Source of the DNA: a virus
DNA: 64,000 nucleotides
Virus record (IMG/VR): IMGVR_UViG_3300038701_003016
Coordinates: 1-64,000 of that record
Reading direction: 5' to 3' (one strand)
Position 1 is the stretch's first letter; the number at the start of each line of letters is the position of its first letter. A program made the position numbers and the translations under genes. This document shows positions 1,368-57,192 of this stretch, one piece after another. Below the pieces are notes generated by a model. It had not been told where the DNA came from. It searched no databases and saw only the letters and a program-made list of their open reading frames with translations.

Positions 1368-1382
1368 ATATGGATATTAAAT

Positions 1383-1454
1383 GCTGTATAGCTTAAGGAA
1401 AGCGCTAAGCTGGTAACTTAGAGATGTAGGAGGTCGAGTTTCTACTACAGCCCA
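1383..1454 (+). tRNA. tRNA-Thr(GGT)-like element, possibly degenerate
   Basis: The sequence folds as a cloverleaf. Six acceptor pairs form GCTGTA with TACAGC, followed by T8 and A9. A short D arm pairs GCTT with AAGC. The anticodon stem CTAAG/CTTAG is perfect, with loop CTGGTAA that keeps U33 and gives anticodon GGT. The T arm is abnormal: stem TAGGA/TTCTA has a G-U pair and an eight-base loop, GGTCGAGT, lacking T54. CCA is encoded at 1452-1454, but no base is then left over as discriminator after the six-pair stem. It is either a divergent tRNA or a decaying one; functionality is uncertain. Confidence 0.45.
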
Positions 1455-8293: not shown

Positions 8294-8515
8294 ATGAAAA
8301 TAAGTCGAGACATGGCAACAAAAGAGTATACTCCTACGGCGGTAGTATTAGAGGATTATGATATTTTAAAAGGAACTTTGGTAGTTCAACTTAGAAGCTC
8401 TATAGCTATTAATAAAATAGCAATCGTAGATAATCCAGAAAATATAAAATATAAAGCCGGAGAAATAGTTAAGCTCAAGTTTAATAGCCTCGAAGATAGA
8501 TGGGAACTTAGATGA
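8294..8515 (+). CDS. Hypothetical protein, 73 aa
   Basis: Short beta-rich protein; the segment TAVVLEDYDILKGTLVVQLR and KYKAGEIVKLKFN suggest a small barrel. Stop and next start overlap (ATGA). Function unknown. Confidence 0.6.
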   Translation: MKISRDMATKEYTPTAVVLEDYDILKGTLVVQLRSSIAINKIAIVDNPENIKYKAGEIVKLKFNSLEDRWELR

Positions 8516-9308: not shown

Positions 9309-9383
9309 AGACCCGTAGCTCAAAGGTAGAGCTGGCTGCTCATAACGGTTAGGTTACAGGTTCGAGTCCTGTCGGGTCTACCA
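9309..9383 (+). tRNA. tRNA with CAT anticodon (Met or Ile2)
   Basis: Full cloverleaf: acceptor AGACCCG/CGGGTCT, D stem GCTC/GAGC, anticodon loop CTCATAA, T arm ACAGGTTCGAGTCCTGT, discriminator A and encoded CCA. The anticodon CAT reads AUG, or AUA if the first base is modified to lysidine. Confidence 0.95.
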
Positions 9384-9384
9384 A

Positions 9385-9461
9385 GTGTCCTTAGCTCAAT
9401 TGGATAGAGCCATGTACTTCTACTGCATAGGTTGCAGGTTCGAGTCCTGCAGGGCGCACCA
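9385..9461 (+). tRNA. tRNA-Arg(TCT)
   Basis: Cloverleaf: acceptor GTGTCCT/AGGGCGC (with G-U pairs), D stem GCTC/GAGC, anticodon stem ATGTA/TGCAT with loop CTTCTAC giving anticodon TCT, T arm GCAGGTTCGAGTCCTGC, discriminator A, encoded CCA. It reads AGA, which is very frequent in the phage genes, so it probably offsets a codon-usage mismatch with the host. Confidence 0.95.
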
Positions 9462-53410: not shown

Positions 53411-55771
53411 TTATTTCCTATATCTGCTGTACCTTTCAGCCTCTGCAGTAATAGGGCACCCTTCAGCCCATGGTTCAATTTCTGACATTAGCTCTTCAAA
53501 TTCTTCCAAAGAGCCTTTATTCTTTGGCACTTCCCCGACCATCTCATCATGGACTGTCATGAACACTCTATAAATAGTGTCTTTGCATCTTAACATTGCG
53601 TCAGCCATTATATCTCTAGCTACTGCTTGAGTTATATTCTCTACTAATTTTCCGCCATAGGATGCTGTACGAACCCATTTTCCTTTCGCCAAAGACATAT
53701 ATCTTATGCCATCTTTGACTTCTCCCCAACTTGTCTTTGTAGGTTTTACAAGAGGGTCTCTGTAACGAACTAATCTACCTGAAGGTAGCTGACAGCACAA
53801 GAAACCTCCTTTTACAAACCATTTTATTTTACCTGATACATAGCAAGGACCCGTAAGTTTATCTCTTTGTTCTATATACTCTGGAGTTACTTCGGCGACA
53901 GCTCCTAAAGTTTGTTTGACTAAAGCTTCCCAGCCTTTAATAGCTGCTATCGCCGCTTCTTCTTGTTCCTTCCACATGGCTTTAACTTCAGGATACCTAG
54001 TTCTATAGACATCGACTGTATATTTCATTAAAGCCAATTCGTGTATTATAGCTTTCGGATTTTCGTCAGCATCAATAAGTATACGTAAAACTCTCGACGC
54101 TTCTCTCTTTTTGAGAGGCTTAGCCTCTTTTCCAGGGAACAAATAGTCATTAACCCAATTATAATATTTTTCGTATTTATCTTGTAGGATTTTTGCTACT
54201 TGCTGTTTACTAAAAGAAATATCGTATTTACGGCATGTTAATAAGAAGGTTAAGAAACCCATTCCATAGCCTAAACCTAAAATGGCTTGTTTACCAAATT
54301 GCCTTTCTTCTGGATGGTCATGCCTATTTACTGGATATCCATAAATGCCCTCGGCCATATCACAGTAAATATCTCCTCCATTTCTGAAGGTTTCTAAGGC
54401 TTTTTCACAGCCAGCTTCCCACAACACACATCTAGCTTCGATAGCAGAATAATCAGCTACTATAAGGTCATTGTCGATAGAAGGTATTATTAGGCCTCTT
54501 AAAGCACTAGAAAGGGCCTCCATAGTTCCTCCATCATAAAACGCTTCAAGCCAATCTGGATTTTGATCCAATATATCATTGGCAGCTACGTCCATATCAA
54601 ATACTGATTTGTACTTTCCAGTTTTTTCATCAAAATATGATACGTTTTTAGCTTTGCCTCTTGGAAAATTTTGTACTTGAATTCCTTTTCCAGACCATCT
54701 ACCGGTGCCTGCTCCATGGTACATTAATATATCTCTAGCGCGGCCGTCTTCATGATCCGTTTTATCAAGAGCTGCCTGATATTTACGGGTAGAAGTTTTA
54801 TTAACCAATTTTACAAGCTGAAGTACTCGGCGAGCTCTGCCTTCCACCTCTGGCATTTGTAAGAATTTATCTAAAGTAGCTGCTTGAGTATCTGGTAAAT
54901 CCAAGTTTTCATTTTCTCTAAGCCAGTTTTTTACCTGTTCTCTTTTAGTAGCTGCAGAGATGCCTGTCATGTCTTCAAGCTCTGAATTCATTCGCTTCTT
55001 AGCTTCTTCGGCAATATACAATGCAGCTTTGGCTAGCTTAAGGTCAACTTGGGCTCCTGATATATTAATTTCTTGATCTAACTGCCACAATGAAAGCTCT
55101 CGGTCAGACAAGGCCGGAATAACGTCGCTTAAAGCTTCTTCAGCTCTTACATCTTGTTTACAATATTCCCATAACCTATAAATGTCTTCCTCTTCCTCAT
55201 GCCATAAAGTAGGCATAGGAGTATCTCTTCCGTGTTTAGCTCTCCATTCTTGCCTTTCAGATTTACGAGGTTTTCTGGGTTTTGCCATTTTAAGCATAAG
55301 CCTTCGGCCTTCCATATCTTTTTCAATAGGAAGGCCCATAGCTTTACAGGCATTTTCAAGATCACGAGGGAGAGAGGCTGCACTAGCCCGAGAAGCAGAG
55401 CACCGCCACTGGTTTTCTGGAACCTCAGGCCACCCATATCTAGGCGTCATTATATGCCTCCAGATAACTCTTTCAAAGAAAGCATTGTGGGCTTCAACTA
55501 ACCCTCCTTGCTCTATCCACTTAAAAAGCTCGTAGGGTATTTCGCTTTCAGCTATAAAAAATTGGTCGTGGCTTCTATGCCAAAGTTCTACTTTTCCTTC
55601 AGGCCAATAAGGTAACCTATAAGCTAAACAAAATACGTCAGTTGTTGGATGCTTAGAATAAATCCATGAGCCAGTCTTCTTAATTTCGCATTCAGACTTG
55701 GTTTCAAAATCTATAGTAGCATGGAGATTTAAATCAATATATGTTTCTATATTTAATACAGGTAGTCCCAT
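53411..55771 (-). CDS. Family A DNA polymerase with 3'-5' exonuclease
   Basis: 786 aa. Exonuclease motif DFET (Asp21, Glu23) and later acidic motifs are in the first 200 residues. Polymerase motif A is LIVADYSAIEARCVLW, motif B RQFGKQAILGLGYGMG and motif C TVHDEMVGE. It replicates the phage genome with the plus-strand primase-helicase. Motif B has Leu at the position of the Tyr/Phe that governs ddNTP choice in PolA, as a guess from alignment by eye. An inserted segment (about 540-600) separates motifs B and C. Confidence 0.93.
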   Translation of the reverse strand: MGLPVLNIETYIDLNLHATIDFETKSECEIKKTGSWIYSKHPTTDVFCLAYRLPYWPEGKVELWHRSHDQFFIAESEIPYELFKWIEQGGLVEAHNAFFERVIWRHIMTPRYGWPEVPENQWRCSASRASAASLPRDLENACKAMGLPIEKDMEGRRLMLKMAKPRKPRKSERQEWRAKHGRDTPMPTLWHEEEEDIYRLWEYCKQDVRAEEALSDVIPALSDRELSLWQLDQEINISGAQVDLKLAKAALYIAEEAKKRMNSELEDMTGISAATKREQVKNWLRENENLDLPDTQAATLDKFLQMPEVEGRARRVLQLVKLVNKTSTRKYQAALDKTDHEDGRARDILMYHGAGTGRWSGKGIQVQNFPRGKAKNVSYFDEKTGKYKSVFDMDVAANDILDQNPDWLEAFYDGGTMEALSSALRGLIIPSIDNDLIVADYSAIEARCVLWEAGCEKALETFRNGGDIYCDMAEGIYGYPVNRHDHPEERQFGKQAILGLGYGMGFLTFLLTCRKYDISFSKQQVAKILQDKYEKYYNWVNDYLFPGKEAKPLKKREASRVLRILIDADENPKAIIHELALMKYTVDVYRTRYPEVKAMWKEQEEAAIAAIKGWEALVKQTLGAVAEVTPEYIEQRDKLTGPCYVSGKIKWFVKGGFLCCQLPSGRLVRYRDPLVKPTKTSWGEVKDGIRYMSLAKGKWVRTASYGGKLVENITQAVARDIMADAMLRCKDTIYRVFMTVHDEMVGEVPKNKGSLEEFEELMSEIEPWAEGCPITAEAERYSRYRK

Positions 55772-55782
55772 GTTTTATCTTT

Positions 55783-56037
55783 CTAGTCGAGGAAACCTTT
55801 AGTCCCATTAACAGCTTCTTCATACATATTTAGAAGCTCGTCTTGTTCTCTACGGTCATATGCATCCATCTTTCTTCTTTTTATAACCATCCTAACAATT
55901 TTTGGATCATACCCGAGCATTTTAGCTTCGCCATAAATATCCCGTTTATCCTCATTATAAACATCTATTTCTTTCTGGACTGCCTCAAGTCTGTCAACTA
56001 AAGACTTTAAAATCTCAGAACTTGGCGTATTGCTCAT
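55783..56037 (-). CDS. GapR/DUF2312-family DNA-binding protein
   Basis: 84 aa. LVDRLEAVQKEIDVYNEDKRDIYGEAKMLGYDPKIVRMVIKRRK and REQDELLNMYEEA match the GapR family, an alphaproteobacterial nucleoid protein that clamps overtwisted DNA ahead of replication. This marks the host group. The ribosome site AGAGGAAA lies just downstream of the tmRNA terminator and can pair with CCTCT in it. Confidence 0.88.
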   Translation of the reverse strand: MSNTPSSEILKSLVDRLEAVQKEIDVYNEDKRDIYGEAKMLGYDPKIVRMVIKRRKMDAYDRREQDELLNMYEEAVNGTKGFLD

Positions 56038-56050
56038 TTAATTTCCTCTA

Positions 56051-56086
56051 AATAAAAAGAGGACTTTCTGTTGCCCGGCCGTCCTC
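56051..56086 (-). terminator. Intrinsic terminator of the tmRNA gene
   Basis: GAGGAC pairs with GTCCTC on the minus strand and is followed by TTTTTATT. The hairpin 3' arm plus T run overlaps a second stem CCTCT/AGAGG that would cover the gapR ribosome site. Confidence 0.8.
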
Positions 56087-56365
56087 GGAGCCGCGTTCAA
56101 TTAAGCTGCTTGAGCAAAATCAACAAGTGGTTGGTTATCGTTGACAATTAACGATTTTAGTCTATAAAGGAACTACCCTGCATTCTCCAATAACCTCTCA
56201 TTGATAGTCGATCCTAGTTCACCCCCCTCAAGAGCCTACTGACAGAGCTTTGCGCCTTGCTAGAGGTCATAGGCGAGTCAACCCCTGCTTATCAGATATC
56301 AGTAGGCTCATGGTGGAGGTGCCGGGTACTGCCCCCGGGTCCTACTCAATTAAATTCATCTTCAT
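56059..56365 (-). ncRNA. ssrA: Circularly permuted two-piece tmRNA (alphaproteobacterial type)
   Basis: On the minus strand the acceptor piece comes first: CCGGGGGCAGTACCCGG (T-arm equivalent), CACCTCC, A and CCA ending at 56311. An intervening segment follows whose GAGCCTACTGA/TCAGTAGGCTC stem (11 bp) extends the acceptor helix. The coding piece begins GGGGGTGAAC (G1 at 56226). The 7-bp acceptor has G3-U70, the alanine identity pair. GGATCGAC is the D-loop-like motif. The tag frame reads VNDNQPLVDFAQAA then TAA at 56101-56103, with GTC as apparent resume codon. GGGCAACAGAA after the tag is the conserved 3' part. It rescues stalled ribosomes. Confidence 0.93.
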
Positions 56366-56384
56366 CAAATGCATACTTAGAATA

Positions 56385-56412
56385 GAAAAAGGGCGCTCCG
56401 AAGAACACCCTT
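56385..56412 (-). terminator. Terminator hairpin upstream of the tmRNA
   Basis: On the minus strand GGGTGTT-CTTC-GGAGCGCCC is followed by TTTTT. With the next one it insulates ssrA from upstream transcription. Confidence 0.75.
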
Positions 56413-56565: not shown

Positions 56566-57192
56566 TTAAAAACCTATATCGTCATCGTCTCCGAGGAAAC
56601 CCTCAGTGTCTTCATCTTCAAGAAAATCATCATCAAAGTCTTCAGCTGCATTCCGACGGCTATCAAGCCGATCTTCATCCGCACAATCTTTAACTTTTTG
56701 TAAATTCATAAGGCCTAAAGATACGCCTTTACCTTTACCGTCATATGAATATACAGTAACAGTAGCTCTAAAGTATGCTCCGGGGTAGATTTCATCCATA
56801 TTACCTTCTTCATGGCTAATAGGATTTTTATTTCTATCTACAATACCTGGTCGCATTTCACTACTTAAATTGGCAAAAATAGTTCCTTCGCCATAGCCTT
56901 CCAGGTCCGCTTTTGATTTACCATCACGCAAACCAAGTTTGTAGCTAGCCCCTTCTGAATTTAAAACTTTAAGTTCTTTAATGGATTTCTTAAAACGTTC
57001 CTTAGCAGCCTCGTTCATAGCATTATTAATATTACGCCATAAAACTTTTTCTTTTTCAGTAAAATTAGCTGGAGTCCAAATAGCCCCACAGCTAAATTTT
57101 TCTTTTGATCCTTCCTGATAAGCTTCAGGTTTTGCTAGTTTGGGAAAAGACATTCTAAATACTGGAGTCGTAAATCTTTGTACTGTAGCCAT
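56566..57192 (-). CDS. Single-stranded DNA-binding-like protein (DUF2815)
   Basis: 208 aa. TPVFRMSFPKLAKPEAY and the beta-barrel stretch GAYFRATVTVYSYDGKGKGVSLGLMNLQKV match DUF2815, a family with an OB fold like T7 gp2.5. The acidic C-terminal tail (DFDDDFLEDEDTEGF, then DDDDIGF) ends in an aromatic residue, the typical protein-interaction tip of phage SSBs. AAGGAAG ribosome site. Confidence 0.88.
   Translation of the reverse strand: MATVQRFTTPVFRMSFPKLAKPEAYQEGSKEKFSCGAIWTPANFTEKEKVLWRNINNAMNEAAKERFKKSIKELKVLNSEGASYKLGLRDGKSKADLEGYGEGTIFANLSSEMRPGIVDRNKNPISHEEGNMDEIYPGAYFRATVTVYSYDGKGKGVSLGLMNLQKVKDCADEDRLDSRRNAAEDFDDDFLEDEDTEGFLGDDDDIGF

Follow-up and report, generated by a model that had tools for sequence, protein, structure and literature searches.

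A circularly permuted tmRNA gene with a valine resume codon in a Xiamenvirus-like siphophage

We found a complete circularly permuted tmRNA of the alphaproteobacterial type on the minus strand of positions 56377-56054 of the window, that is, the whole 64-kb stretch of DNA analyzed, which covers nearly all of a virus record of 64,159 bases. The gene lies in a phage genome and was inherited within a phage group, as indicated by gene order and by a tree of tmRNAs. Judging from these comparisons, it is very likely a functional phage ssrA gene, and its product is probably a working ribosome-rescue RNA. The tag that it encodes starts with valine.

Structure of the permuted tmRNA gene

Two Rfam covariance models matched the gene. 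The alpha_tmRNA model (RF01849), a search proposed in the initial annotation, matched positions 56477-56056 (-) at 113.5 bits (E 3.4e-30); tmRNA_permuted (RF04321), the merged permuted model, gave 109.3 bits (E 2.1e-20) at positions 56373-56101 (-). Both scores exceeded the curated Rfam cut-offs of 50 and 47 bits, respectively. ARAGORN, which is independent of Rfam, also called a permuted tmRNA with the tag VNDNQPLVDFAQAA. Thus, the earlier proposal of a phage-borne two-piece tmRNA with its own tag was backed by two covariance models and ARAGORN. When the two pieces were folded as separate strands without constraints, they formed the full acceptor stem and the T arm and paired with each other over a long helix. 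The single-strand fold showed a modest stability over shuffled sequences (z -2.1), and the case for a tmRNA rests on the covariance models. The features of the gene and its neighbors are as follows.

56389 to 56412, minus strand: hairpin AAGGGTGTTCTTCGGAGCGCCCTT with a T-run just 5' of the acceptor piece (simple terminator scan)
56311 to 56377, minus strand: acceptor piece, the 3' tRNA-like part with T arm, CACCUCC strand, A73, and encoded CCA (Rfam, ARAGORN, and unconstrained two-strand fold)
56227 to 56310, minus strand: intervening segment of 84 nt, predicted to be removed on maturation (sequence and fold)
56059 to 56226, minus strand: coding piece with the GGGGGUG acceptor strand, GGAUCGAC motif, pseudoknot region, tag frame, and 3' hairpin
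56158 to 56179, minus strand: candidate PK1 pseudoknot 5' of the tag, AGGG/UCCU with UAGU/ACUA (read by eye)
56101 to 56145, minus strand: tag frame GTC...TAA, product VNDNQPLVDFAQAA (ARAGORN, alignment to relatives, and U-5/A-4 context)
56054 to 56086, minus strand: conserved 3' hairpin GAGGAC/GUCCUC with GGGCAACAGAAA in the loop, then UUUUU; possible terminator
56566 to 57192, minus strand: single-stranded DNA-binding protein (SSB) of the Enc34 family, PF10991, upstream neighbor (synteny)
55783 to 56037, minus strand: GapR-like DNA-binding protein, PF10073, downstream neighbor (synteny)
53411 to 55771, minus strand: DNA polymerase A, used for phage placement

The structural elements described in the initial annotation were all located. 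The acceptor piece lies 5' of the coding piece and ends with CACCTCC-A-CCA at 56311; its 3' tRNA domain in the ARAGORN call spans 56353-56311, and the 5' portion of the acceptor piece forms base pairs with the coding piece. An 11-bp helix without mismatches, GAGCCTACTGA/TCAGTAGGCTC, at 56309-56299 and 56242-56232 closes the intervening segment. The coding piece begins with GGGGGTG at 56226, and the 7-bp acceptor stem GGGGGUG/CACCUCC contains the G3-U70 pair. The GGATCGAC motif was also found in the coding piece. In the candidate pseudoknot, the order AGGG-UAGU-UCCU-UUAUAG-ACUA was read by eye.

The 3' motif GGGCAACAGAAA is placed in the 16-nt loop of a hairpin with a 6-bp stem (GAGGAC/GTCCTC, 56086-56059), which is followed by TTTTT. 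This hairpin had been described as the gene's own terminator. The hairpin and its U-run are present, but the same hairpin is the conserved 3' element of the family and also appears in the Rfam consensus and in relatives. Its loop length places it outside what a simple terminator scan lists, and termination at this hairpin is plausible from its sequence. The hairpin at 56412-56389, whose place is also occupied by a visible hairpin in the related contig L206 and in the Rfam model, may be either the terminator of the upstream gene or a leader hairpin. It is one of a tandem pair of related hairpins (GGGTGTYCTTCGGRGCRCCC) that look like terminators and separate the SSB gene from the tmRNA, at 56500-56477 and 56412-56389 (-); both are better terminator candidates than the 3' hairpin. 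A simple scan showed no sigma-70-like promoter near the tmRNA or between the tandem hairpins. A supposed phage-specific shortening after the tag (deletions relative to Rfam columns 276-317) was rejected, as many bacterial tmRNAs share the distance of about 30 nt to the 3' motif.

Carrier phage, relatives, and ancestry of the gene

The carrier is a Xiamenvirus-like siphophage of about 64 kb, kin to phages of Ruegeria, Roseobacter, and Rhodobacter. The window encodes terminase, portal, major head, and tail proteins, polymerase, primase, helicase, and nucleotide metabolism genes. Its DNA polymerase is 59% identical to that of Ruegeria phage Tedan, 53 to 54% identical to those of the Roseobacter RDJL phages, and 44% identical to those of Rhodobacter capsulatus phages. 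DNA similarity to known phages was absent or confined to 38 nt of the tmRNA. The GapR-like protein (55783-56037, -) is a homologue of an alphaproteobacterial nucleoid protein and also occurs in contigs L205 to L207 and in Tedan. The window also carries clear tRNA-Met and tRNA-Arg(TCT) genes at 9309-9461 and a weak tRNA match at 1382-1453 (+), which scored 40 bits with Rfam and gave no ARAGORN call.

Whole-record searches revealed permuted tmRNAs in two cultured phages, RcSimone-Hastad (108.7 bits) and RcRudolph (103.6 bits). The former copy (MW677525.1, 32190-32477; L007) lies in a gap of the GenBank annotation, and a "hypothetical protein" is called in GenBank over the latter (OP009285.1, 49133-49421; L008). 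Among IMG/VR relatives gathered via the SSB, L206 and L207 carry a tmRNA with the tag ANDNFEQSAEFAIAA (122 bits), and L209 carries one with the tag VNDNDMFEDVRLAA (58 bits). The gene order exonuclease, SSB, tmRNA, GapR-like protein, and DNA polymerase is the same in the window and in L206, whose DNA polymerase is 63% identical to that of the window. In L209, RcSimone-Hastad, and RcRudolph, the tmRNA likewise lies between the SSB and polymerase genes. The tags of these relatives (ANDNVRMDAQALAA in RcSimone-Hastad and RcRudolph) differ from that of the window; L209 shares the GTC resume codon, whereas RcSimone-Hastad, RcRudolph, and L206 use alanine. No permuted tmRNA was found in the whole records of Tedan, RDJL1, and RDJL6, and none was found in the searched records of L204, L205, L208, and L210; some of these seven are fragments. 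Because several relatives are without it, the tmRNA is, on gene content, dispensable in this phage group and has been gained or lost within it.

Permuted tmRNAs were present in at least 119 IMG/VR contigs, and the kind is therefore common. Several of the viral copies have individual traits. A tRNA-Pro(TGG) gene lies directly 3' of the phage tmRNA in L209 (7142-7218, +). In L120, the 110-nt intervening segment (8323-8432, -) resembles a class II tRNA, possibly Leu-UAA; it falls under the Rfam and default ARAGORN thresholds, and ARAGORN reports it only when its threshold is lowered. The intervening segment of the L083 tmRNA is 215 nt long and contains an open reading frame some 68 codons long (MVTFKEKCRVYYMVKG...), and the permuted tmRNAs of L037, L039, L054, and L061 encode an unusually long tag of 29 residues, ANDNALSNVTFVDFSAPVTAVNEDFALAA.

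A maximum likelihood tree was built from 95 tmRNAs with the tag left out. The closest tmRNA to that of the window was the L206 copy, with 65% identity. Phage and bacterial tmRNAs were separated by 2 label changes on the tree compared with 31 in shuffles, where the viral contig L112, whose tmRNA and tag are of the bacterial type, was counted as bacterial; given the weakness of many internal branches and the length of some terminal ones, only this coarse pattern was used. Scored with the alpha model, the best bacterial tmRNAs in the class sample reached about 250 to 310 bits, against 58 to 122 bits for the window and its relatives, a gap which indicates that the window tmRNA is no recent host capture. 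Its low score could come partly from relaxed constraint. In addition, G3-U70 was held through compensatory changes of the acceptor stem (GGGGGUG/CACCUCC, GGGCCGG/CCGGUCC, GGGGUGG/CCACUCC, and GGGGCCG/CGGCUCC). In 13 close pairs of tags from other phages, 27 codon differences were synonymous and 13 were non-synonymous, where 23% synonymous differences were expected (P = 3e-9). Phage tags, as a group, are thus probably translated and selected. From the separation on the tree, the compensation around G3-U70, and the mostly synonymous tag changes, we conclude that phage permuted tmRNAs are old, probably functional phage genes and not recent host captures.

The synonymous excess also counts against two other explanations of the gene. 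The first is a host ssrA fragment, now out of use, which was left by imprecise excision or at an attachment site. The ssrA gene is a common integration site, and prophage fragments of it are known (PMC9004378). However, the gene in the window is complete with all of its functional elements intact, it lies inside a replication module, no tyrosine integrase was found in the phage, and both the tree and the shared gene order point to phage ancestry. Such an origin is therefore extremely improbable. The second is an inhibitor or decoy: by binding host SmpB, the RNA would shut off trans-translation in the host, a role suggested for the tmRNA of mycobacteriophage DS6A, which lacks a tag. Phage RNAs that resemble tmRNA and may titrate SmpB have been described, and the DS6A RNA, also phage-borne, consists of little beyond a tRNA-like domain (PMC4131195). 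No SmpB was detected in the phage of the window, which agrees with a decoy and also means that any trans-translation must rely on host SmpB. Unlike DS6A, however, the window keeps a full tag frame, a stop codon, the resume context, GGATCGAC, and the 3' motif, none of which a decoy needs, and selection appears to act on the tags of related phage genes. We consider a decoy function very unlikely, and a functional ssrA gene is the reading that we retain, although its low model score, its absence from several relatives, and the failure of a simple scan to find a sigma-70-like promoter nearby weigh against it.

The tag and its resume codon

The tag frame at 56145-56101 reads GTC AAC GAT AAC CAA CCA CTT GTT GAT TTT GCT CAA GCA GCT TAA, in agreement with the tag frame and stop codon noted at first. 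The resume codon is GTC (valine), not GCN, as the initial annotation had also proposed; it lies at 56145-56143 and is aligned with GCC in RcSimone-Hastad and GCA in L206. Positions -5 and -4 relative to this codon hold U and A, respectively, a context shared by the phage and bacterial groups. In a targeted scan of viral contigs for VNDN tags, clear cases were found in L249 (VNDNDMEVAQAA), L251 (VNDNVAPYEMSLAV), L252 and L253 (VNDNVAFSEELRLAA), L254 (the same contig as L209), and L255 and L256 (VNDNQVDIALAA). A GTC resume codon is thus present in the window and in five other distinct VNDN loci on differing tmRNA backbones; for example, L249 has the T loop TTCGA, and L255 begins with GGGGCCGACATAGGTTTCGAC and scores best with the merged permuted model.

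None of the 143 distinct alphaproteobacterial tags in the ARAGORN set begins with valine. In a phage scan that was not selected for tags, 5 of 47 distinct tags among the matches listed were valine first compared with 0 of the 143 bacterial tags (Fisher's exact test, P = 0.0008, kinship ignored), but these five are of the VA(A/D/F) type with a less certain resume codon. In these tags, VAANDNN, VADNDNN, and VAFNDN (L023, L070, L097, L011, and L120), the next GCA can be read as the resume codon instead. The A at -4 favors GTC, and they were counted apart from the VNDN tags. A pattern search for a GTC resume codon in 385 alphaproteobacterial genomes gave 0 matches and was discarded as powerless, since the alanine form of the pattern matched 0 of 129 known bacterial tmRNAs.

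The -QAA end of the tag, which had been taken to set it apart from host tags, also ends 2 of the 143 distinct bacterial tags (ANDNFAPVAQAA and ANDNYAPVAQAA) and three further sampled phage tags (ANDNFVAEDYRQAA, ANDNFAPQEFAQAA, and ANDNFAPVAYAQAA). As a phage signature it was rejected, with 1 of 47 distinct phage tags among the matches listed against the 2 of 143 bacterial tags in the ARAGORN sets (Fisher's exact test, P = 1). The suggestion that tagged proteins might escape ClpXP is accordingly unsupported, because the same end occurs in ordinary bacterial tags. Since -QAA is shared with bacterial tags and a first valine is not, the tag appears to depart from host-type tags chiefly at its first residue, as compared with the sampled bacterial tags, which may not be those of the host.

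A valine resume codon is recurrent in phages and not unprecedented: the resume codon of Helicobacter pylori is GUA, which encodes valine, and in Escherichia coli GUC is said to function in this position (PMC2862035). The H. pylori tmRNA further resembles that of the window in having an unusual residue near the tag end in place of Leu or Val (Lys there and Gln in the window), but its codon is GUA in a bacterial gene and not GUC in a phage gene (PMC2862035).

We also considered that the tmRNA works with a retuned tag, in which the valine start and the -QAA end alter recognition by adaptors and proteases so that tagged proteins are spared or rerouted. The GTC codons on different backbones and the absence of valine from the bacterial tags fit this idea, as do five changes of the resume residue on the tree, a rough count given the long branches and few columns. 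In addition, when GUA encoded a valine in the E. coli tag, frequent breakage after that residue was reported, and such tags were ineffective in growth competition (PMC2862035). The use of valine in H. pylori and of GUC in E. coli, the occurrence of -QAA in ordinary bacterial tags, and the LAA ends kept by most phage tags argue against it. Overall, a retuned tag is unlikely. The broader proposal, that phages repeatedly moved the resume codon from alanine to GUC valine on several backbones for tags that host adaptors and proteases read differently, with the window as one case, is doubtful to the same degree.

Proposed function and comparison with known systems

As a working ssrA gene, the locus would act as follows. 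The transcript would be cut at its tRNA-like ends as in any permuted tmRNA, with RNase P and 3' processing removing the 84-nt segment, and the two mature pieces would remain paired. Host alanyl-tRNA synthetase would charge the RNA with alanine via G3-U70, and the charged RNA would bind host SmpB and move into ribosomes that have stalled on mRNAs which are broken or lack a stop codon. The ribosome would resume at GUC and add (A)VNDNQPLVDFAQAA, and a tagged nonstop product would carry AVNDNQPLVDFAQAA. As a result, ribosomes may return to translation during infection, and the unfinished protein may pass to host proteases, to the presumed benefit of the phage.

The gene resembles alphaproteobacterial ssrA (RF01849, with the two-piece tmRNA of Caulobacter) in the order of acceptor piece, intervening segment, and coding piece, and in the T loop GGCAGUA, GGATCGAC, the NDN-type tag start, and the GGCAACAGAA 3' motif. 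In contrast, the best bacterial genes of the sample score about 250 to 310 bits and bacterial tags resume at alanine, whereas the window tmRNA scores 113.5 bits and resumes at valine. Its tag has 14 amino acids; 12 is the most common length in bacteria.

The initial annotation implied that such a gene was new, yet a 2022 study had already described a two-piece tmRNA in phage Melnitz and, in a survey of public phage genomes, assigned the two-piece form to 53 of 133 distinct phage tmRNAs (PMC9004378). Phage tmRNAs in general date back to mycobacteriophages (PMC4131195); 79 distinct bacteriophage sequences are held in a 2025 tmRNA database (PMC11915505), and tmRNA genes in phages of Bradyrhizobium elkanii were described in the same year (PMC12656738). 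Melnitz, a Methylophilales phage, and other marine phages also encode a permuted ssrA of the alphaproteobacterial type in a phage of aquatic bacteria (PMC9004378). Melnitz is a myophage whose ssrA was reported with a glutamine riboswitch (PMC9004378), whereas the window is siphophage-like, has a valine-first tag, and showed no riboswitch in an Rfam scan. As far as the literature searched shows, the permuted tmRNA in this siphophage group is new.

The window tmRNA is a well-supported added example of phage-encoded ribosome rescue. The analysis suggests an old, phage-specific pool of permuted tmRNAs, distinct from the bacterial genes. The GUC resume codon is a small testable trait that recurs in phage tags, and the two cultured cases on Rhodobacter capsulatus, RcSimone-Hastad (strain SB1003) and RcRudolph (strain YW1), open the role of phage tmRNA to direct test.
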